IMG/VR virus record: IMGVR_UViG_3300036979_000267
Coordinates: 1 to 61,078 of that record
Direction: 5' to 3' (one strand)
Length of the DNA stretch: 61,078 bases
DNA from: a virus
Both the position numbers and the translations under genes were made by a program. Numbering within the stretch: position 1 is the stretch's first letter; each line of letters opens with the position of its first letter. Below are positions 25,668 through 50,224 of this stretch, piece after piece. Under the pieces are notes generated by a model. That model saw nothing but the letters and a program-made list of their open reading frames with translations. It was not told the DNA's origin and made no database searches.

Positions 25668-28070
25668 CTACGTCCACGCGCCGATATTGACTCTCTCGAC
25701 TTCCCGGACGGTATTGCCCATGTACGCCCCGGACTGCTGGCCGTCCGCGTGAAGCGCTAGATACTGGAGTGCGTCACAGTTGCTCACCAGCACGCCGTTG
25801 GCATAGTACGCCCCAGCCCCCTCAACGGCTATCGCGTAGACGCAGGCGGGCTGCGCTAATGGCAGCACCTGCACACACCTTAGAGCATGTTTTTGTTTTC
25901 CGGTACTTGTTCGCTTGGAACTCTGTACCGCAAACCACGCACGTGCGCGTTTCGTCATCAACTCCGCTGGCGACTCGGGCCATGCCCTGACAACTGGGGG
26001 AGCAGAACCCCCGCTTGCGGGCTCCGGCAAAGCCGTCGTACAGCTTACCGCACTGTGTGCAGACATGCTGTTGCTTTTCCCGCCCAATCCACGTAGATTT
26101 CCCGTGCTCCCGGTGCCAAGCCAGTCCATCAGGGCTACCATGCCACTGCGCAGCGGCGAGCCGGGCCGCTGCCAGATGCTCGGGCATACCGAACGTACCG
26201 TCGGCGATGCGTTCGAGGGCATGTTGCCTGCTGTGGTCGGTGCCGAGCATGAGGGCAAGGTTTTCAAGGCGGTTGTCGCTGGTGTTTCCATTGTCGTGGT
26301 GCACGTGGTGCTTGGGGGGTATTGGCCCGTTGTGGAACTCCCACACGTACCGGTGCATGTAGACCGTGCGGCGGCCAGACTCCTCATAACCAGCTTTGTA
26401 GTACCCCCGGCCTTTGCGATAGAACCGAATGCCGTTGAAAATCTGAACCGGATGTTTTGTAGCCATGGAGCGCTCCGAGTGTGGATGCTGTCCAGTATAT
26501 CAGAATACTGGAGTGCGTCAAGCGCAACCCACCCCCGTTGTGTGAGTATGGGATGGTCGGGCGTCCCCTCAAGCACCAGCCCGTCGGACAATTCCGCGCG
26601 CACCACGGGCGCAACACGGCTGTGGACCGCTGTGACCCTCCGGGGGCCAATCGGAGTCTCCACCAAGTCCCCCACGCGCAAAAGGTCCACGTCCGTCGCG
26701 CCATCCGGGGTAGCGACGCGCGTACCAGCCACAAAGCAGATGTGAGAGGCCATGTTTTTCTCCGGCTCGTCGTCCATCTCGCCCGTTTTCTTGGCCTTGT
26801 ACCGGTACTTGCCGCGCAAACCCCCAATCAAATTTAAGCACTTGTTGTCCACAAGGAACCCCGCGCCGCCGTCCACCTGTCGGTTGAGGAACTGGTCCAC
26901 CGCCCCGATGCGGGCAATCAGGGAGTTGGTGTGGGCCGAGATAGCCGTAAACCCCTCGGCTTTCAAGATGTCGTACACCGTTTTCTCGTCGGTCTGCACC
27001 CGCGAGCGTCCAGCGGGGTCGCCGATAACGAGTATGGGCGCCCCGGGAAAGTTCTGCGCCAGTAGTGGTTTCAGTATGGTACGCACGAACCGGAGCACGC
27101 CCATGCCGTCCGAGGTGGCCTCGCCCATGACCAGCAGCCTGCCCTGCATGTCAAGCTGCCCGATGACCGCACTGGGGTTCAACCCGAAGTCCATGCCGAT
27201 GAGCACTGGCCGTACCCCGTTCAGTATGGGTCGCAGCGCGCCCTTGGCGATGTGAAAGTCGGAGTCGAACGATTTCCACACGGGCTGGCCAGACAGGCTC
27301 TTGCCGAACTTCGCGTGGATGTAAATATCTATGTATTCCTCGGATTTCCCAGTTGCGAGCGTTTCATAGTACCCTGAAGGAAGCAGGTGGAGCCAGTCTG
27401 CTTCCGGGCTCGTCCCGCTAGGTTGAATTGTCACGTGTGTGTTCGATGGGGGGTTCGTCAGCAGGCCCTCGAAGTACGTGTCCATATCGGGCGGATTCGA
27501 GGCGCCCCATAGCCGGGCATTGGGGGTTCCGTCGTCCATGACACAGCCCATGCGCGGGTTACCCTTGTCGTCCGTCCCCCATTCCGGTTTGTGGGGCACC
27601 ATCATGCCATCGGGGTATCGACCCAATCGGGCCTGCAGGGCCTCGAAGATGTCCTTGTTGAGTTCGCGGAACTCGTCAATGATGGCAAAGCTCGCTTGGA
27701 GCGACAGCAGCCGCCGTACGTCTTGGGCGTCGTCAAGGCCGCGGAACAGCACATCGCACCGAATGTCACCAACAGACAGCTCAAAGCGCATCTCGGACTT
27801 GTAGTAGGTACCCGCCTCACCGTCCGGGAACCATTTTAGGAAGTCGGGAATGCTCGTGTCACGAAGTTGTTCACGTGTGTTGCGTACGAAAATGCACCGC
27901 GAGCGGCGAAAGCCATCCTTGGCCCGGGCCATGTGCCCAGCGTGGTAAAGCAGCTTCACGATCGCGGAAGTTGTCTTTGAGCTGCCTACTGGTCCACAGA
28001 TGAACGAGATGAACTTTTCCGAGGTAAAGAACGCCTCGGTGCTCGGAACTGGGGTGAAGATCAGGCTCAT
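25668..28070 (-). CDS. terL: Terminase large subunit precursor containing an intein
   Basis: The precursor is 800 residues; removal of the intein (residues 445-764) would leave a 480-residue terminase. The ATPase part has a Walker A GPVGSSKTT at 26-34 and Walker B with FAIIDEFREL (Asp132, Glu133). The RNase H-like nuclease part includes LIGMDFGLNP and ILVIGDPAG. The intein sits after Ile444, and the Cys after it is followed directly by the DALQY motif, whose Asp is the third metal ligand of TerL nucleases. The unspliced precursor should therefore be nuclease-defective. It overlaps the small subunit gene by 4 bases. Between residues about 540 and 740 the frame is a low-complexity Ser/Thr/Pro-rich out-of-frame reading of the nested endonuclease gene. 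Confidence 0.92.
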   Translation of the reverse strand: MSLIFTPVPSTEAFFTSEKFISFICGPVGSSKTTSAIVKLLYHAGHMARAKDGFRRSRCIFVRNTREQLRDTSIPDFLKWFPDGEAGTYYKSEMRFELSVGDIRCDVLFRGLDDAQDVRRLLSLQASFAIIDEFRELNKDIFEALQARLGRYPDGMMVPHKPEWGTDDKGNPRMGCVMDDGTPNARLWGASNPPDMDTYFEGLLTNPPSNTHVTIQPSGTSPEADWLHLLPSGYYETLATGKSEEYIDIYIHAKFGKSLSGQPVWKSFDSDFHIAKGALRPILNGVRPVLIGMDFGLNPSAVIGQLDMQGRLLVMGEATSDGMGVLRFVRTILKPLLAQNFPGAPILVIGDPAGRSRVQTDEKTVYDILKAEGFTAISAHTNSLIARIGAVDQFLNRQVDGGAGFLVDNKCLNLIGGLRGKYRYKAKKTGEMDDEPEKNMASHICFVAGTRVATPDGATDVDLLRVGDLVETPIGPRRVTAVHSRVAPVVRAELSDGLVLEGTPDHPILTQRGWVALDALQYSDILDSIHTRSAPWLQNIRFRFSTAFGSIAKAGGTTKLVMRSLAAARSTCTGTCGSSTTGQYPPSTTCTTTMETPATTALKTLPSCSAPTTAGNMPSNASPTVRSVCPSIWQRPGSPLRSGMVALMDWLGTGSTGNLRGLGGKSNSMSAHSAVSCTTALPEPASGGSAPPVVRAWPESPAELMTKRARAWFAVQSSKRTSTGKQKHALRCVQVLPLAQPACVYAIAVEGAGAYYANGVLVSNCDALQYLALHADGQQSGAYMGNTVREVERVNIGAWT
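25761..25776 (-). repeat. 16-bp direct repeat, extein copy
   Basis: The coding-strand sequence TGACGCACTCCAGTAT, which encodes the start of the TerL nuclease motif DALQY, is repeated exactly at 26505-26520 inside the intein, where the intein also reads DALQY. The spacing between copies is 744 bases, a whole number of codons, and encloses the nested HNH gene and intein C-terminus. Confidence 0.9.
25822..26466 (-). CDS. HNH homing endonuclease nested out of frame in the TerL intein
   Basis: A 214-residue frame, offset by two bases from terL on the same strand, starts at an ATG with GGAG six bases upstream and ends TGA. Residues about 36-75 form an HNH_3-type module: MHRYVWEFHNGPIPPKH, then HHDNG at 56-60 and NRLENL. 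Two zinc ribbons follow, CTQC/CSPSC at 136-159 and CVVC/CSKVC at 176-198. These are definite coding signatures, whereas the intein frame over the same bases is low complexity. The gene probably makes the intein mobile by cutting intein-less terL. The last 30 or so bases also encode intein block F in the other frame, so that segment is under double constraint. Confidence 0.9.
   Translation of the reverse strand: MATKHPVQIFNGIRFYRKGRGYYKAGYEESGRRTVYMHRYVWEFHNGPIPPKHHVHHDNGNTSDNRLENLALMLGTDHSRQHALERIADGTFGMPEHLAAARLAAAQWHGSPDGLAWHREHGKSTWIGREKQQHVCTQCGKLYDGFAGARKRGFCSPSCQGMARVASGVDDETRTCVVCGTEFQANKYRKTKTCSKVCAGAAISAARLRLRDSR
26505..26520 (-). repeat. 16-bp direct repeat, intein copy
   Basis: This copy matches the extein DALQY-coding sequence at 25761-25776 exactly. 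It lies 39 bases upstream of the nested HNH start codon, at the end of the N-terminal splicing segment (GWVALDALQYSDIL). Confidence 0.9.
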
Positions 28071-30702: not shown

Positions 30703-31563
30703 ATGACCAAATTTATCAATGACCTGCCTGAGTTAGAAGCCACGTATCTGCACGAGCAGCTCAAGTACGACCCCGAGACTGGCGCGCTGGTGTGGATCGT
30801 CAAGCGCCAAGGCGTTACCTGTGGGGCTGTTGCTGGGCTGCGTCGCTACGAAGGTGACTCCATCCACATCGGCCTTCGTAAATTCCAGTACCCTGCCGAG
30901 CTACTCGTGTGGGTAATGCGCCGGGGCTCGTGGCCTTCGCACATACCGTACCACATGGACCAAAACCGAAGTAATAATCTAATTGCGAATCTGGCGCTGC
31001 CCGTGGGCGCGCACCAGATAAAACCCCCACGCCAAAGGCGCATGCAGGTCGTGCTGGCACGGCTAGACGCAACCCCTGTCCCCGACACCTTTGCCGCCGC
31101 CCTTGCACCCACCATCAGCCTCGACCTTGCACGGTTAGGCACGACAGCCCCTGCCGACGCCTTTGCCCCAGACACCAAGCGGAACAACCGGGGGCGCAAG
31201 CACGCGCTGGTATCCATTCGACTACCCGCCAAGGCGCCGGAGCCCACTGCGCTGGAGGCCATGCAGTCGCTAATAATAAAGGCGCGCGTCGAACTGGCAC
31301 ACGAGCAGGGCAACCCCCCGGACATGAGCCCAGCACCGGAGAACATCGCAGGGCGCGCCGCCGTGATCGAGTACACCCGCAAGCTGGCCAGCTTGGAGGA
31401 GCGCATCCGCGGTATGCAACGCAAGATCGCCACCATGGAGGAGCAGGACGCCCAGAACCCCATGACCTCAGACACGGCCACACACCAGCCCATCAAAGGG
31501 TTGTCCACACTGCAGGGCCTGTTCGCCAAAGCCCTTGGAGGCACACCCCACAAAATCACGTGA
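30703..31563 (+). CDS. Protein with degenerate HNH_3-like N-terminal domain
   Basis: The 286-residue protein begins with a segment (about residues 18-105) resembling HNH_3 homing endonucleases: LKYDPETGALVWIVK, LLVWVMRRGSWP and YHMDQNRSNNLIANL. The last of these matches the HxDxNxxNN...NL core, but the preceding metal-binding residues look altered. The remaining 180 residues are Ala/Pro/Arg-rich with a coiled coil near 225-255. It could be an endonuclease domain reused for DNA binding. A ribosome site, AAGGAA, lies 8 bases upstream. Confidence 0.6.
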   Translation: MTKFINDLPELEATYLHEQLKYDPETGALVWIVKRQGVTCGAVAGLRRYEGDSIHIGLRKFQYPAELLVWVMRRGSWPSHIPYHMDQNRSNNLIANLALPVGAHQIKPPRQRRMQVVLARLDATPVPDTFAAALAPTISLDLARLGTTAPADAFAPDTKRNNRGRKHALVSIRLPAKAPEPTALEAMQSLIIKARVELAHEQGNPPDMSPAPENIAGRAAVIEYTRKLASLEERIRGMQRKIATMEEQDAQNPMTSDTATHQPIKGLSTLQGLFAKALGGTPHKIT

Positions 31564-32800: not shown

Positions 32801-33380
32801 AACAAATTCAGAAGTGGCGCAAGCCTTTGTGTCCGGCGGCGAAGCCTGCAAGGGCAGCAACACGTTGTACGACCGCATGGAGCTCCCACGCATTCCGTTA
32901 GTGGTGCGGACATTCACATCGTATTCCACGCTGGTGGCGGTGATCGCCGAGGGCACGCTATGGTGGAATGACTACCGCTCCAATTCTACGCAACGACAAC
33001 TCAGCTACATGCATGCCGCATGGCGGACCGCGAGCGTCGGCACGGATGCTCTGAGCATGTGTGTGGAGCGTCCGCTAGAGGGGGCATCGGACAGCAACGT
33101 GTGCAGCTACGTGGTGAAGGCCGAGGACACCCTGCAAAAACTCCTGAAGCCGCGCATCCGAAACACGACCAAGGCAAACCACTGGGGCGAATTCTTGTCG
33201 CTGGTGGACCGCACCGAGCTACTGCTGACCCTGCCCTGCTACTCGTCGGCGCCAAGCAAAACTGTCATGAAACGCCTGGACACCCTGCGCCGCATCCGCG
33301 ACTCGAACGCCTCTAATCCCGTGGGATTAGACCGCGTCATCACCAATGTACGTGCGATACACGCACTGGAAGGAAAGTAA
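32793..33380 (+). CDS. Hypothetical accessory protein
   Basis: The 195-residue protein starts MTKTNSEVAQAFVSGGEAC, with a middle helix and a Lys/Arg-rich segment (LLKPRIRNTTKANHW). Palindrome copy 5 lies in frame near the C-terminus and reads NPVGL. No family recognised. It is one of a run of overlapping early genes. Confidence 0.55.
   Translation: MTKTNSEVAQAFVSGGEACKGSNTLYDRMELPRIPLVVRTFTSYSTLVAVIAEGTLWWNDYRSNSTQRQLSYMHAAWRTASVGTDALSMCVERPLEGASDSNVCSYVVKAEDTLQKLLKPRIRNTTKANHWGEFLSLVDRTELLLTLPCYSSAPSKTVMKRLDTLRRIRDSNASNPVGLDRVITNVRAIHALEGK
33314..33329. repeat. 16-bp palindrome, copy 5 (centre GT)
   Basis: Perfect arms, inside a coding sequence and read as NPVGL. Confidence 0.88.
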
Positions 33381-33381
33381 T

Positions 33382-33579
33382 ATGGACTTCAATATCACCA
33401 TCACCGAGATCGCCCTGATCATCTGGGGCGTCATCGCATCAGGCATAGCCCACCACCAGTACAACCAGCACCTCGAAGCGGCACGGCTCATCTACCGCCT
33501 GCTCGGCGACGAGTTCCTGCGGGACCAGATGGTGCAGGCTCACGCCCGGTTCCACGCGGCGCAAGGAGAAGAGAAATGA
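33382..33579 (+). CDS. Small membrane protein (65 aa)
   Basis: The product starts MDFNITITEIALIIWGVIAS, one membrane segment, followed by a charged helical tail. A GGAAGGAAAG ribosome site lies upstream. It overlaps the next gene by 4 bases. Function unknown; a small inner-membrane protein of the early region could act on the host envelope. Confidence 0.6.
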   Translation: MDFNITITEIALIIWGVIASGIAHHQYNQHLEAARLIYRLLGDEFLRDQMVQAHARFHAAQGEEK

Positions 33580-33893
33580 AAGTCAAAGTAAACGAAGCAG
33601 TCGGCCCTGTGCTGAACTGGATGGTGGGTTGCGCACTGGACGAGTACAGCCCAAGCGCAGTACCTGAATATTCAACCGACTGGGCACAAGGCGGGCCGAT
33701 CATTGAGTGGGAGAAGATTGATCTGTACCAGTCCACTGGACGCACCTGTGCCGCGATGTGGGAGAACCTACCCGGAGGTGGAAGGCTGATCGCAGAGGCT
33801 AAAGACTGCCCCACCCCATTGATCGCGGGCATGCGCTGCTACGTTTCTTCCCGCTTAGGCGACACCGTAGAGGTTCCAGATGAGCTGGCCTAA
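33576..33893 (+). CDS. DUF2591 family protein
   Basis: The 105-residue protein matches the DUF2591 phage family: a KVNEAVGPVLNWMVGCAL start, a central WEKIDLYQS segment and a tail PLIAGMRCYVSSRLGDTVEVPDEL. Families of this kind occur in many phages without known function. Its last 17 codons are part of a duplicated junction: another, different copy of the same tail lies about 490 bases downstream in frame with the neighbouring endonuclease gene. The ATG overlaps the upstream stop by 4 bases. Confidence 0.85.
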   Translation: MKVKVNEAVGPVLNWMVGCALDEYSPSAVPEYSTDWAQGGPIIEWEKIDLYQSTGRTCAAMWENLPGGGRLIAEAKDCPTPLIAGMRCYVSSRLGDTVEVPDELA

Positions 33894-33906
33894 GACACCC
33901 ACTAAG
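33843..33906 (+). repeat. Left copy of a duplicated gene junction
   Basis: This 64-base stretch covers the DUF2591 tail, its stop and the first codons of the endonuclease gene. It aligns without gaps to 34336-34399, which covers the endonuclease tail, stop and first codons of the next gene. Identity by eye is about two thirds, with many differences at third codon positions, so the copies are old or of different origin. Confidence 0.8.
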
Positions 33907-34386
33907 CACGGCCATGCAACACGGGCAAAGGGAATTAGCCCTACATACCGGACTTGGCAGGCCATGAATACCCGCTGCACAAATGTTTCGGTCAAGTCCT
34001 ACGAAGACTACGGTGCACGGGGCATATCAGTGTACGCAGGGTGGCTCGTGTTCGAGAACTTTTTTGCCGACATGGGCGAGAAGCCTGCAGGCACAACGCT
34101 TGAGCGCATCGACAACGAGAAAGGCTACGGACCTGACAACTGCAAGTGGGCGACCAAGACGGAGCAAGCACGAAACACTCGGGCTAACAAGTTCGTCAAC
34201 TACAAAGGAAAACGTATGACGCAAGCTGAATTCGGAGAAGTCATTGGGCATAACCAATCTACAGTCAGCTACCGACTACGTGCTGGCTGGACACCTGAGC
34301 AAGTAGCCAACACACCAGCACATACAGGGAACCGTGTGGTGTCCAAGTTGGGCGAGGAAGTGGAGGTGCCTGATGAACTCGTCTAA
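33880..34386 (+). CDS. HNH-like homing endonuclease inserted at a gene junction
   Basis: The 168-residue protein contains YRTWQAMNTRCTN, a DYGARGISVYAGW segment and LERIDNEKGYGPDNCKWAT followed by EQARN, a signature shared with the endonuclease at 49637 and with many phage HNH-like endonucleases. A C-terminal helix-turn-helix-like segment (TQAEFGEVIGHNQSTVSYR) may read DNA. Its final residues, SKLGEEVEVPDEL, are a DUF2591 tail, and its first residues, MSWPKTPTK, resemble the start of the next gene (MNSSKTPPKK). It therefore uses host sequence for both start and stop. Confidence 0.85.
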   Translation: MSWPKTPTKHGHATRAKGISPTYRTWQAMNTRCTNVSVKSYEDYGARGISVYAGWLVFENFFADMGEKPAGTTLERIDNEKGYGPDNCKWATKTEQARNTRANKFVNYKGKRMTQAEFGEVIGHNQSTVSYRLRAGWTPEQVANTPAHTGNRVVSKLGEEVEVPDELV

Positions 34387-34399
34387 AACTCCGCCCAAG
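34336..34399 (+). repeat. Right copy of the duplicated gene junction
   Basis: This copy corresponds to 33843-33906 and probably is the original junction between the DUF2591 gene and the gene starting at 34373. Confidence 0.8.
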
Positions 34400-34630
34400 A
34401 AACTCGTTGGGGACTTCAAAACGCTGCGGGAAACACGTGACGAGGCCAACAGGCTGGTGATAAACGTCACGTCACACCCCGAGGCCACACAGGAGCAGAT
34501 ACTGCGGGCACGGGATAGCGGCCTGCGTATCGGCGCACGATACAAAGAGATTCGGGCCGATCTTCGGGAGATTTACCCAAACCAAAGTTACTGGCGGACT
34601 TACCCATGGAATGATAAGGAGGAATCATGA
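34373..34630 (+). CDS. Hypothetical protein displaced from the DUF2591 gene
   Basis: The ATG at 34373 sits within the DUF2591-type tail sequence, so before the endonuclease insertion this gene would have overlapped the DUF2591 gene directly. The 85-residue protein starts MNSSKTPPKKLVGDFKTL and is charged and helical, with EATQEQILRARDSGLRIG. It overlaps the next gene by 4 bases. Family not recognised. Confidence 0.6.
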   Translation: MNSSKTPPKKLVGDFKTLRETRDEANRLVINVTSHPEATQEQILRARDSGLRIGARYKEIRADLREIYPNQSYWRTYPWNDKEES

Positions 34631-35232
34631 GCGACACATACAGAACGGATACCCGAGAGGCGCCATGCGGTACGCGATACCGCGTGGACTGGGAGTACGA
34701 CAACGACTACGGTATGCCGGAGAAGGAGTCCGATGGGCATGGGGTAGTTGTGGAGTTGGTTGAGGACCCAGCGGACTACATGGATCAGTTCGACGAAGAC
34801 GACGATCCCGACATGGAAGAGGTCATCCGGCACAAGATGATGCGGCGCTTGTCGGGGTATCACCACACACATAGACACGGGCAGGTGAAGTATTACGACG
34901 TGTGGGAAACACGGAAGAGGGCCGCGGCCGAGGGCTGGGGGGTCGATAATCCCATGGGATTAAGCCCCGAGGAGATCATCGACGCGGCCATTGATGCGGA
35001 CTTCAAGTACCTGCGTGGTTGGTACAACGACAACTGGCACTGGTGCGGCATCACGGTGACCCTGCTGGCCGAGGACGAGGATGGCGACGACGAGGATACC
35101 GAGTGGGATAGCAGTCTATGGGGGGTCAACTCCGAGGACGATGCGCACCACGAGGAAGTTATTGCCGAGTTGCTGGCGGATGTGCTAGGTCGCCGAGCCG
35201 AAGCAACAACTGTCATAACCGCTACCGCTTGA
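34627..35232 (+). CDS. Acidic hypothetical protein with DUF-like phage signature
   Basis: The 201-residue protein has an N-terminal WEYDNDYGMPEKESDGHG segment and an acidic run (DQFDEDDDPDMEE). A second half includes YLRGWYNDNWHWCGITVTLL and WDSSLWGVNSEDD, a pattern known in several phage proteins of unknown function. Palindrome copy 6 lies in frame and reads NPMGL. AGGAGG precedes the start. Confidence 0.6.
   Translation: MSDTYRTDTREAPCGTRYRVDWEYDNDYGMPEKESDGHGVVVELVEDPADYMDQFDEDDDPDMEEVIRHKMMRRLSGYHHTHRHGQVKYYDVWETRKRAAAEGWGVDNPMGLSPEEIIDAAIDADFKYLRGWYNDNWHWCGITVTLLAEDEDGDDEDTEWDSSLWGVNSEDDAHHEEVIAELLADVLGRRAEATTVITATA
34947..34962. repeat. 16-bp palindrome, copy 6 (centre AT)
   Basis: Perfect arms with an ATG in the centre; read in frame as NPMGL within the acidic protein. 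Confidence 0.88.
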
Positions 35233-35276
35233 CTATTCATGTACAATACGGACTTAACAAACTGTAAAGGATTTTT

Positions 35277-35885
35277 ATGTACAACCCAACAATAGCACCG
35301 CTCACTGCACGCGACCTAGAAATGTATGAGTTGCTGCTCGCGGGCACTACCTTAGCGGACACGGGGCGCAAATACGGGGTGAGCCGACAGCGAGTGAAGC
35401 AGGTGGTAAACAAACTATCCGCATGGGGCAAGCCGACAAACGCAAAAGCAGTACGCGATGCATCTAAGCATGCGGGGTACTTAGAGCAGAAAGTTTCCAA
35501 GTTTGGAGCGTCGTACTCTGAGATTGCAGCGAGCCCAGAACTACTAGCCCTTCTAAAAAAGCGGATAACACTGAAACGCAACCACGCGATGCAGAACGGG
35601 GTACCTTTTGACCTTACGATATCTGATCTATACCCGCTACCAGAAGTATGCCCTGTACTAGGTATACCGATTCACTACGGGACAGGCCACACGGGGGCTG
35701 CGGACAACGCTATGTCGATAGACCGGATTGATCCCAGCAAGGGCTATGTCCGAGGGAATATACAACTAATGTCGATGCGCGCCAACCGCATAAAGAACAA
35801 CGCAACCCCGGACGAATTGCGGCGGGTAGCGGACTTCTACGCCCTCTGCGCTTTACATTCGGAAAAAGTACCGCTTGACAAATAG
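35277..35885 (+). CDS. HNH-like endonuclease with N-terminal helix-turn-helix
   Basis: The 202-residue protein begins with a helix-turn-helix-like segment (LLAGTTLADTGRKYGVSRQRVKQVV). The C-terminal half has LPEVCPVLGIPIHYG and SIDRIDPSKGYVRGNIQLMS followed by RANRIKNNAT, a pattern common to phage endonucleases with a His-Me-type core. AAAGGA lies upstream. It is a plausible freestanding homing endonuclease in the early region. Confidence 0.75.
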   Translation: MYNPTIAPLTARDLEMYELLLAGTTLADTGRKYGVSRQRVKQVVNKLSAWGKPTNAKAVRDASKHAGYLEQKVSKFGASYSEIAASPELLALLKKRITLKRNHAMQNGVPFDLTISDLYPLPEVCPVLGIPIHYGTGHTGAADNAMSIDRIDPSKGYVRGNIQLMSMRANRIKNNATPDELRRVADFYALCALHSEKVPLDK

Positions 35886-36218: not shown

Positions 36219-36536
36219 GTGTCTAATATAGATGGCAACGGCTACGGCAACGGCAACGGCTACGGCAGCGGCTACGGCTACGGCGACGGCTACGGCTACG
36301 GCGACGGCGACGGCGACGGCAGCGGCGACGGCAACGGCAACGGCGACGGCGACGGCAACAGCCACGGCAACGGCAACGGCAACGGCAGCGGCTACGGCAA
36401 CGGCAAAGGCGGCGGCTACGGCAAAGGCTACGGCAACGGCAACGGCAACGGCAACGGCATACAACCCTTCGTGGTCTCGGATTACACCGGCGACAGCATG
36501 GCATCGGCTGTGCTGGTTTCACAACTTGTTACCTAA
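36219..36536 (+). CDS. Gly-Asn/Tyr/Asp dipeptide-repeat protein
   Basis: The 105-residue frame starts at GTG (36219), one base after the preceding stop. Residues 5-82 alternate Gly with Asn, Tyr, Asp, Ser or Lys (for example GNGYGNGNGYGSGYGYGDG). The last 25 residues, PFVVSDYTGDSMASAVLV, form a more ordinary domain. The bias for GGC at Gly and a mix of aromatic and acidic residues resemble phase-separating or surface-adhesive repeat peptides, but nothing proves a function. The stop TAA is from palindrome copy 8. Confidence 0.7.
   Translation: MSNIDGNGYGNGNGYGSGYGYGDGYGYGDGDGDGSGDGNGNGDGDGNSHGNGNGNGSGYGNGKGGGYGKGYGNGNGNGNGIQPFVVSDYTGDSMASAVLVSQLVT
36231..36459 (+). repeat. Tandem GGCNNC repeat tract
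   Basis: About 38 consecutive hexamer units of the form GGC plus NAC or NGC run without interruption. In frame 36219 they give Gly-X dipeptides. Such a tract is prone to slipped-strand expansion and contraction, always in whole codons. Confidence 0.9.
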
Positions 36537-47345: not shown

Positions 47346-47665
47346 AAAACGAAAAAGATGTGAAGGCTGCTGTGAAGGCGATCATGGGCCGCCCCGTGGA
47401 CTTCCTGTGGTACTACATGCCTGCGGCCAATGGCTTCGGCACGCCGGGCATCCCGGACTTCATGGGAATCTGCTACGGCCGCGCGTTTGCCATCGAGACC
47501 AAGTTCGGTGCCGGTAAGCGCACTGCATGGCAGGAGAAGCAAGCGGACGCAATCAACTGGGCCGGAGGGCAATACTGGCTGGTGAACGAGAAGAACGTGG
47601 AGGACTTCGCTGTTTCGTTTTCGCAGTTCGCACGCGAATGCGCAGCCCGCAACGGGATCATGTAA
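47342..47665 (+). CDS. VRR-NUC domain nuclease
   Basis: The 107-residue protein has the VRR-NUC pattern: GTPGIPDFMG, then AIETKFGAG and Q-rich WQEKQADAINWAGG. Phage VRR-NUC proteins are small Holliday-junction-resolving or flap-type nucleases that often sit next to a SNF2-type helicase, exactly as here; the next gene starts one base before its stop ends. Start ATG 47342 overlaps the previous stop. Confidence 0.88.
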   Translation: MKNEKDVKAAVKAIMGRPVDFLWYYMPAANGFGTPGIPDFMGICYGRAFAIETKFGAGKRTAWQEKQADAINWAGGQYWLVNEKNVEDFAVSFSQFARECAARNGIM

Positions 47666-49662
47666 TGCTCGTAGTCCCGGCTTCCCGCAAACTCGTCATC
47701 GACTCACCCAGCTATGCGCAGGTGGCGTCGGTGATTCCCCACGCGAAGGCATTTACCCATGCTGGGCAGAACCTACTTGCGCTGCACCACGGCGTTGAAG
47801 AGTCACTGGTGCTTAAAAACTTTGGCTTTAGTGTGCCTGCGCCTATCTTGTCCTACTACTCGTGGCCTGCACGCTTTACGGCTATGGAGCATCAAAAGGA
47901 CACGGCAGCGTTTCTGACGATGAACAAGCGGGCGCTGGTGCTGAACGCGCCGGGCACTGGGAAGACCCTATCGGCCATCTGGGCTGCGGACTTCCTGCTG
48001 GACGAGGGAGTGGCCAAGCGTATTCTGATCGTGGCGCCGCTATCTACCCTGACTGTGGTGTGGGGCCGGGAGTTGTACCACCACTTACCCCACAGGGCTT
48101 TCAAGGTAGTCACAGGAGATCGGAAGAAGCGGGAAGAGTTGCTGGCCACACCCGGGTGTCAATACTTCATCATCAACCACGATGGCTTCACGAACATGCA
48201 GGACGCCCTGAAGGATTTCGACATCGTGATCTATGACGAGGCCACCGCACTAAAGTCGCCAAGCTCACAGCGGTACAAGATATTTGCGAAGTGGATGTCG
48301 AAGCACGACCCATGGCTGTGGATGCTGACGGGGACACCCATCTCCCAGAGCCCTGCGGACGCATGGACACTTGCGCGCCTTGTGAATTCACCGGCGTGCC
48401 CGAAGAGCTACACCACGTTCAAGGATATGGTGATGCAGAAAATTACGACGTTCAAGTGGGCCGCGCGGCCGGACGCCCTGACGACATGCAAGAAGATTTT
48501 GCAGCCGTCGATTCGCTTTTCGCTGGACGAGTGCAAGGACTTGCCAGACACGAATTTTGTGGGGCGCAAGACCACGCTGACGCTGCAACAGAAGAAGGCG
48601 TTCAAGGAGATGCAGGAGAAGGCGGTGACGTTTTTCTCTGGCGCGGAGGTATCCGCACCGAACGCTGCAGTGGTGCTGGCCAAGCTATTACAAATCTGCT
48701 GCATAGCGGGCGATACGGATGTGCTAACCGGGAGGGGGTGGGTGCCCATACAGACCGTTACTCCGTTGGACATTGTGTGGGATGGGGCGGAGTGGGTAAC
48801 CTGCGCCGGGTCTGCGCTACAAGGGTATAAGACTGTGGTGGACTGCGCGGGTGTGTTCATGACGCCCGACCACAAAGTCCTTTCGACAGCAGGGTGGGTA
48901 GAGGCGAGGGAGTTTTTGTATGGCGAATCACGCAGTAGACCTACTAGGGCAGACGTTCGGGTTCCTGACGGTGCTGTCCCGAGCAGAGCCACCCACGGGG
49001 AAATCCAAGACCGCCCGAATTTCCCGCGGGGACCCGGACCCACTGCGGCGGGTCCGGTAGCTGTGTATGACGTGCTGAACTGTGGCCCGAGAAATCGTTT
49101 TGTGGTGCGCGGACGCAACGGGGAACTAAGCATCGTGCACAACTGTGGCGTAGTTTATTCTGACACAGATCGAGTTGAAATAGATGCCAGTGACAGGTAT
49201 AATACGTTCACCGAATTGCTCGATGAAATAGGCGGCAAGGTAATAGTGTTTTGCCCTTTACGGGGAGTGCAGGATTGGTTGGAAACGTCATTGCGCAAAG
49301 GTGGCTACGATGTGGCATCTGTGCATGGCGGTGTGAGTAAGACAGCGCGTAATCAGATATTTAATGACTTTCAGCATACAAGCGGCATTCAGGTTTTGCT
49401 GGCACACCCCAAGGTGGCCGCGCACGGACTGACGCTGACGGCGGCGAAGGACATTATCTGGTTTGCCCCTATCTACTCACTGGAGCAGTATGAACAAGCC
49501 TGTGCTAGAATACGTAGGCTGAGTACAGAAGGCAAGACGACGGTGTGGCATTTGTACGCAACACCATTTGAGGCGGAGCTTTACAGGCGACTCCACCAGA
49601 AACGAAAAGTGCTTGGGGACTTTTTGGACTTAGTAAATGGAACGAACGACGACTCTGATTGA
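47665..49662 (+). CDS. SNF2/DEAD-type helicase precursor containing a mini-intein
   Basis: The 665-residue precursor has motif I LNAPGTGKTLSAIW (about 93-106), motif II IYDEAT, motif III MLTGTP and motif VI-like QACARIRRLSTEGKT near the end. The intein occupies residues 346-493 (148 residues) after LLQIC, so the mature enzyme is 517 residues. It is a superfamily 2 phage helicase of the kind found beside VRR-NUC nucleases. The start ATG 47665 overlaps the preceding stop codon by one base. The 3' end overlaps the next endonuclease gene. Confidence 0.9.
   Translation: MLVVPASRKLVIDSPSYAQVASVIPHAKAFTHAGQNLLALHHGVEESLVLKNFGFSVPAPILSYYSWPARFTAMEHQKDTAAFLTMNKRALVLNAPGTGKTLSAIWAADFLLDEGVAKRILIVAPLSTLTVVWGRELYHHLPHRAFKVVTGDRKKREELLATPGCQYFIINHDGFTNMQDALKDFDIVIYDEATALKSPSSQRYKIFAKWMSKHDPWLWMLTGTPISQSPADAWTLARLVNSPACPKSYTTFKDMVMQKITTFKWAARPDALTTCKKILQPSIRFSLDECKDLPDTNFVGRKTTLTLQQKKAFKEMQEKAVTFFSGAEVSAPNAAVVLAKLLQICCIAGDTDVLTGRGWVPIQTVTPLDIVWDGAEWVTCAGSALQGYKTVVDCAGVFMTPDHKVLSTAGWVEAREFLYGESRSRPTRADVRVPDGAVPSRATHGEIQDRPNFPRGPGPTAAGPVAVYDVLNCGPRNRFVVRGRNGELSIVHNCGVVYSDTDRVEIDASDRYNTFTELLDEIGGKVIVFCPLRGVQDWLETSLRKGGYDVASVHGGVSKTARNQIFNDFQHTSGIQVLLAHPKVAAHGLTLTAAKDIIWFAPIYSLEQYEQACARIRRLSTEGKTTVWHLYATPFEAELYRRLHQKRKVLGDFLDLVNGTNDDSD
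48700..49143 (+). mobile_element. Helicase mini-intein (148 aa)
   Basis: Block A is CIAGDTDVLTGRGWVPI beginning at Cys346 (codon 48700-48702). Block B is VFMTPDHKVLS with TxxH. Block F is VYDVLNCGPRNRFVV and the end is SIVHN before Cys+1 (TGT 49144-49146). All four catalytic positions (Cys1, TxxH, terminal His-Asn, Cys+1) are intact, so splicing is likely. Between block B and F only about 45 residues are left where an endonuclease would be, and these coincide with an out-of-frame endonuclease remnant. Confidence 0.9.
48920..49060 (+). pseudogene. Truncated out-of-frame endonuclease remnant inside the helicase intein
   Basis: In the plus-one frame relative to the helicase, ATG 48920 (with GGGAG eight bases upstream) opens 46 codons ending TAG. 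The start, MANHAVDLLGQTFGFLTVLS, matches the opening of the endonuclease at 49637 (DLAGQRFGALQV) and of many phage endonucleases with the pattern LxGQxFGxLTV. The zinc-binding and catalytic parts are missing. It is read as the surviving 5' end of a nested homing gene, the rest of which was deleted while the intein frame stayed open. Confidence 0.8.
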
Positions 49663-50224
49663 CCTCGCGGGGCAGCGGTTTGGGGCGCTACAAGTGTGGT
49701 GCCGCCTACCGAATCGGGGGCGCGCCGTGTATTGGTTTTGTGTATGCGACTGCGGCGCTACTGCAGAGTGCTCGTCTGGTAACTTGCGCGGCGGCAAGTC
49801 TCGTAGCTGCGGATGCGTCCGCACAAGGCACGGCGGCTGGAAGAGCAAAGAGTATGCGAGTTGGCGACACATGCGCCAACGATGCGACAACCCAGAGCAC
49901 GCGGCGTACCGCAACTATGGTGGTCGGGGCATAACGTACTGCGCCGCTTGGGATGACTTCGCAGTGTTCTTGTCGGACATGGGTGCTGCGCCAGCGGGTG
50001 GGACACTGGAGAGAATCGACAACAACAAAGGGTATGCCCCCGATAACTGTCGGTGGGCCACGAAGAAAGAGCAAGGGCGCAACCGGCGTACGAATACGCT
50101 GAATACCGATACCGCGCGGCAAATACGCGCAGCGGACGGAGACCAGCAGGGGATTGCGAAACGCTTCGGTGTTTCGCAAGCGACAGTGAGTAGGGTTAAA
50201 AATTGTAAACAGTGGAACTATTAA
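49637..50224 (+). CDS. HNH-like endonuclease adjoining the helicase gene
   Basis: The 195-residue protein starts inside the last codons of the helicase gene. It has DLAGQRFGALQV, a zinc-binding CVCDCG and CGCVR pair, then YASWRHMRQRCDNPEH, NYGGRGITYCAAWDDF and LERIDNNKGYAPDNCRWAT with EQGRNRR, the same core as the 33880 protein. The C-terminus is a helix-turn-helix-like segment (GDQQGIAKRFGVSQATVSR). A complete member of the family whose remnant lies in the neighbouring intein; it may now serve that intein's mobility. Confidence 0.85.
   Translation: MERTTTLIDLAGQRFGALQVWCRLPNRGRAVYWFCVCDCGATAECSSGNLRGGKSRSCGCVRTRHGGWKSKEYASWRHMRQRCDNPEHAAYRNYGGRGITYCAAWDDFAVFLSDMGAAPAGGTLERIDNNKGYAPDNCRWATKKEQGRNRRTNTLNTDTARQIRAADGDQQGIAKRFGVSQATVSRVKNCKQWNY

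Follow-up and report, generated by a model that had tools for sequence, protein, structure and literature searches.

The usual view of homing genes outside introns and inteins is that they are intergenic or gene-breaking. Another layout is known from fungal mitochondria, where mORFs occur in atp6, atp9, cox2 and nad3 (Allomyces macrogynus, Glomus): an endonuclease ORF of the LAGLIDADG or GIY-YIG type lies within the 3' part of a gene, preceded by a foreign replacement end and followed by the native one, and in atp6 the inserted and native ends are 63.5% identical, the native one matching a close relative (PMC3630166). In the phage literature searched, homing genes overlap or split genes, to which is added the 11-residue mimic of ShiLan, a hidden HNH insertion in phage methylases that is read through in the host gene's own frame, carries its HNH in another frame and begins with 11 residues resembling the 11 residues after the insertion site (PMC11855218). 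T4 mob genes and the HNHEs of lactococcal Skunavirus encode HNH-family enzymes and have no intron or intein; the mob and seg genes of T4 are either intergenic or gene-splitting, Aeh1 mobE lies inside a gene, the starts of several T4 homing genes overlap the upstream gene, and a replacement gene end is absent from the review (PMC2988022, PMC12724721). No phage homing gene with a replaced gene end was found in the open-licence literature searched, and earlier reports elsewhere are possible.

We analysed a viral stretch of 61,078 nt (IMG/VR record IMGVR_UViG_3300036979_000267, positions 1-61,078; the whole stretch is called the window), in which an endonuclease ORF lies in the coding sequence of a DUF2591 gene and is followed by a second copy of that gene's end. 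As between mORF copies, nucleotide identity between the two ends is approximately 64% and the protein is conserved. In contrast to mORFs, the enzyme belongs to a phage HNH family, and the putative native end is kept as the C-terminus of the endonuclease, where it would still drive the next gene. Judged by this analogy, the element works like an mORF without being filed as one. It shares with the T4 and Skunavirus genes the HNH family and the lack of an intron or intein, with Aeh1 mobE its position inside a gene, with several T4 homing genes a start that overlaps the upstream gene, and with the ShiLan insert a non-splicing HNH element within phage coding sequence; unlike the latter, its copy contains a stop codon and restores a complete host gene. 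We consider it likely that an HNH homing-type gene was inserted into the conserved DUF2591 3' end together with a diverged replacement, and that the displaced native end became the C-terminus of the endonuclease.

The DUF2591 gene end on both sides of an HNH gene

The host gene of the insertion (33576-33893, + strand, 105 aa) was assigned to the DUF2591/P22 NinX family by PF10765 (1.1e-10; 42.2 bits, above the gathering score of 22.6) and phrog_4389 (1.1e-19), and its protein ends in RLGDTVEVPDELA before the stop. The HNH-family endonuclease gene follows (33880-34386, +, 168 aa, running from MSWPKTPTK to RVVSKLGEEVEVPDELV; family-specific part approximately 33904-34329), and then the next gene (34373-34630, +, 85 aa, starting MNSSKTPPKK). 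Both junctions are 14-nt overlaps at GATGAR, and about two thirds of the DUF2591 genes in the loci examined overlap their next gene.

The stretch 33843-33906 recurs without gaps at 34336-34399, at an offset of 493 bp and with 41/64 identical positions, against 33/64 for the next-best window position of the left copy on both strands, so the coordinates of the duplicated 64-base ends reported in the initial annotation hold. The last DUF2591 codons, VSSRLGDTVEVPDELA, reappear before the stop of the endonuclease as VVSKLGEEVEVPDELV, and the joint pattern GARGTNCCNGATGARYTNGYNTAARACNCC has exactly two matches in the window, where shuffles give an expectation of 0. In a search limited to 172 HNH ORFs, relatives of the endonuclease, the endonuclease tail was recognised as DUF2591 by profile (E=0.0003), and nearly all of these ORFs had no tail of this type. 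Within the coding part, identity between the copies is 76%, 76% and 41% at codon positions 1, 2 and 3; the low value at the third position explains why exact-seed repeat finding detected no direct repeat at the two copies, and the pattern argues for old or foreign, long-separated alleles under protein-level constraint rather than a fresh target-site duplication.

On sequence grounds, we regard the homology of the copies as firm from approximately 33846 as far as the DUF2591 stop codon (33893). The initial annotation had let the duplication run on into the beginning of the next protein (KTPxK); the DUF2591 tail to the stop stands, and the extension beyond it (9/13 nt after the stop, with nothing comparable in the related prophage locus L255 described below) is weakly supported. 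Its reading of the silent differences as the sign of a recoded, cleavage-resistant left copy is plausible at most, since any distant donor allele would show equal synonymous divergence.

The left copy (33843-33893, +), which contains the start codon of the endonuclease (33880), would be the imported replacement, and the right copy (34336-34386, +), the in-frame C-terminus of the endonuclease, the displaced native end. Each carries a Shine-Dalgarno-like site: AGAGGTT for the endonuclease, within DUF2591 codons (33869-33875, +; duplex -6.5 kcal/mol, the median for ATGs in the window being -3.1), and GGAGGTG for the next gene, within the right copy (34362-34368, +; -10.6 kcal/mol). Because the Shine-Dalgarno-bearing tail codons are duplicated, there is a second ribosome-binding site and start, so that both downstream genes have one.

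The endonuclease gene has a start and stop codon of its own and lies outside any intron or intein; no Rfam match to a group I intron or other RNA element was obtained at 33000-35300. Residues 20-158 match PHROG 3377 (HNH endonuclease, 2.8e-48), but no Pfam or NCBIfam HNH model matched. An AlphaFold2 model (pLDDT 87) was confident in the core and not in the tail, and a Foldseek search with it returned no solved nuclease fold at a significant score.

Several other homing-type genes were observed in the window. A terminase-like ORF with a Hint (intein) domain (25671-28070, -) carries, in its intein region, an out-of-frame HNH_3 gene on the same strand (25825-26466, -), an idea resembling the ShiLan hidden HNH. 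An SNF2-type helicase ORF (47527-49662, +), seemingly with a short intein-like insert (CIAGDTDVLTG...VVHNC), overlaps with its end the beginning of another HNH gene from the family described here (49637-50224, +). With an HNH-type endonuclease ORF (HNH_3) near the endonuclease (30703-31563, +) and an endonuclease VII-like HNH-type ORF with a helix-turn-helix start (35277-35885, +), the region is rich in homing-type genes.

Tail-bearing relatives and the identity of the native copy

The 172 HNH ORFs of this kind came from viral contigs, phages and one prophage; among them, DUF2591 tails occur in just three distinct ORFs: that of the window, that of a Janthinobacterium prophage (L255; DUF2591 profile E=8e-6) and KLEP17-4 gp48, whose profile match is weak (E=0.05) and whose likeness is clear by eye. 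All three tails are fused at one point of DUF2591, directly before the xSKLG/xAKLG codons. A FastTree tree of 123 cores groups the window and L255 endonucleases as sisters (0.94), the former without the N-terminal domain present in the latter, and places the KLEP17-4 enzyme elsewhere, in a separate lineage; thus, the DUF2591 end was seemingly hit at least two times. Whole-genome searches with the L255 endonuclease yielded no further DUF2591 tails. The degenerate pattern R-[IV]-x-[SA]-KLG found just three ordinary DUF2591 genes in viral contigs and only L255's own match in 369 bacterial genomes, which indicates that tail chimeras at this junction are rare, in a non-exhaustive scan whose pattern leaves out the window's own VVSKLG variant. 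In KLEP17-4 gp48 (L090:2435-2974), a DUF2591-like start and a DUF2591 tail surround the HNH part, with no adjoining separate DUF2591 gene; it looks as if a later deletion joined the host-gene start to the endonuclease. Two Pseudomonas phages with the same next gene provided no clean empty site for KLEP17-4.

The prophage L255 has the order DUF2591, HNH, native-type tail, next gene. In L139, which is syntenic with L255 on both sides, and in the same allele in genome G835, a single DUF2591 gene overlaps that next gene. The L139 DUF2591 end matches the right copy of L255 at 37/45 nt (76/90 through the next-gene start) and the left copy at only 32/44 nt, with gaps, which makes the right copy of L255 the native one and the left copy foreign. 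The initial annotation had placed an insertion between DUF2591 and the next gene, the left-hand end being a foreign replacement and the right-hand one the original, together with the next-gene start; this pair, with the same gene family and fusion point, bears it out. The DUF2591 body of L255 is only 41% identical in amino acids to that of L139, against approximately 70% nucleotide identity in the flanks, so that the imported stretch may extend well upstream of the tail; the import may, from these alignments, cover more of DUF2591 than its tail in general. The gene after DUF2591 in L139 and L255 (RRLLGLTDGRLITLDG, then a glycine repeat) is similar in make-up to a low-complexity GNG/GYG repeat protein encoded in the window (36219-36536, +).

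For the window itself, the phage collection contained no close relatives of the phage, and neither relatives of the next gene nor an empty site for the phage or that gene were found. EBPR siphovirus 1 (gp24/gp25) has the window's left junction, including the endonuclease residues MSWPKTP..HGHA, without an endonuclease, and is alone in this among 202 DUF2591 junctions examined. This match ties the left copy to the endonuclease and, by elimination, points to the right copy as the native end of the window. As a clean empty site EBPR siphovirus 1 was ruled out, since gp25 keeps MSWPKTPEHGHA, probably the remnant of a lost endonuclease.

Flanking gene-end copies at other phage HNH loci

The stretches of DNA on the upstream and downstream side of every HNH core were compared in all same-strand frames (threshold score >=48). 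Of 136 non-redundant HNH loci, 11 had flanking copies; in the fetched loci, the neighbouring genes had them in 18 of 769 cases (odds ratio 3.7, p=0.0018). The excess at HNH genes over control genes is clear but moderate; an estimate from permuted pairs (11 observed, 0.13 expected) was too optimistic and was superseded by this real-neighbour control. A few of the 11 cases (L017, L006) are less certain. The host genes concerned include a DnaB-like helicase, a phiKZ042 homologue, a ParB-like gene and an exonuclease. L296 and L039 reproduce the 3' layout of the window with other host genes: the HNH start overlaps the imported end with its stop, and the start of the next gene overlaps the native end with its stop.

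A mirror image, with insertion at the 5' end of the exonuclease gene exo, is given by L281 and L282 (occupied) and the isolate Synechococcus phage S-CBS4 (empty), in which exo starts MKFPRYEPNRLQINKKRYYVSED. The left copy in L281, RYEPNRLQINKKRY, is in frame with the HNH gene and matches the native exo start of S-CBS4 at 14/14 aa and 36/42 nt, whereas the start of the L281 exo gene is diverged from the native one (23/42 nt) and rejoins the native gene straight after the diverged copy, the break being the exact point where both copies cease to match. With an isolate phage as empty site, this case upholds the general mechanism of insertion with a replacement end. Relatives free of the insertion, which the initial annotation had proposed to compare, were thus available for L255 (L139) and, mirrored, for L281 (S-CBS4), the window phage having yielded none. 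These two pairs parallel the match of the native mORF copy to a close relative, and insertions at gene starts are an addition to the mORF layout. The downstream gene's 5' end, in place of the upstream gene's 3' end, was observed on both sides of the HNH gene in L281, L282, L299 and L311.

Proposed mechanism, rival explanations and significance

In the mechanism we propose, a free-standing HNH homing-type gene would enter the DUF2591 3' end directly before the VASKLG codons and supply, as the left copy, a diverged replacement for the severed end, so that DUF2591 would stay complete. The last codons of the left copy would hold the Shine-Dalgarno sequence and overlapping start codon for the endonuclease; the displaced native end, the right copy, would be read in frame as approximately the last 17 endonuclease residues and would retain the signals of the next gene, its Shine-Dalgarno sequence and overlapping start. 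Since each copy keeps these elements, both gene junctions would survive. We infer that the protein has the uninterrupted DUF2591 end as its cleavage target and that the element came from a donor phage by break repair; the foreign left copy would escape cutting, the target thereby being removed from the occupied allele. Homing into a gene end with a co-transferred replacement end, as in fungal mitochondrial mORFs, would be the simplest account. Counting against it are the failure to find an empty site for the window phage or its next gene, the distant DUF2591 body of L255, the missing N-terminal domain in the window's HNH and the Foldseek result.

Two tandem DUF2591 paralogues could have given a similar arrangement if the endonuclease had taken the place of the second one's body and left its tail as its own C-terminus. 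DUF2591/NinX genes are tandemly duplicated at 17 of 182 loci, with up to three copies (L160, L102-L108, L081, L135 and others), which keeps this explanation alive for the window itself; KLEP17-4 gp48 combines a DUF2591-like N-terminus (MTGVKTAELAG) with the tail, and the distance between the upstream DUF2591 body of L255 and L139 is what a paralogue would show. We nevertheless consider it unlikely, since the window and L255 endonucleases have no DUF2591 N-terminus, that of L255 bearing the family's own full-length N-terminal domain, a single DUF2591 gene occupies the syntenic empty site (L139), and a paralogue is superfluous where the host gene is another one (L281/S-CBS4, L296, L039).

More improbable still is mosaic recombination at a short conserved stretch, by which an unrelated HNH gene was joined to a DUF2591 end kept solely for the next gene's ribosome-binding site, with no homing involved. 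The strong Shine-Dalgarno site in the tail codons, the frequent overlap of DUF2591 genes with their next gene and the role of short conserved stretches as recombination points in phage genomes agree with such an origin, but it does not account for the identical fusion point in two endonuclease lineages, for a mirror-image case in which the displaced end is in frame with the HNH gene and the break falls exactly where the match of the copies ends, or for a flanking-copy excess specific to HNH genes. As the duplicated stretch is short (approximately 17 residues), chance or convergent likeness of the two ends was also weighed; we give it almost no credence in view of the two exact pattern matches where none is expected, the profile E-values of both tails (3e-4 in the window, 8e-6 in L255), the absence of the tail from the endonuclease's relatives and the contradicting L255/L139 pair.

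Homing into the gene end with a replacement end thus remains the preferred reading. Known from fungal mitochondria, the layout seems, from the independent cases described here, to be used by phage HNH genes as well. With a replacement end, a homing gene can occupy conserved coding sequence without damage to either neighbour, and self-protection could be a second role of the foreign end. The layout explains odd C-termini of phage HNH proteins, makes flanking gene-end copies a simple sequence signature for locating homing sites, and yields a directly testable prediction of the target, in which the uninterrupted gene end is cut and the carried copy spared. Whether phage HNH homing genes commonly invade first or last codons, carrying a diverged substitute for exactly the severed end, we regard as evenly balanced; if they do, this would be a general, splicing-free way of life for selfish genes inside coding sequence, by which gene ends and junctions would be rewritten and native ends fused to the endonuclease.
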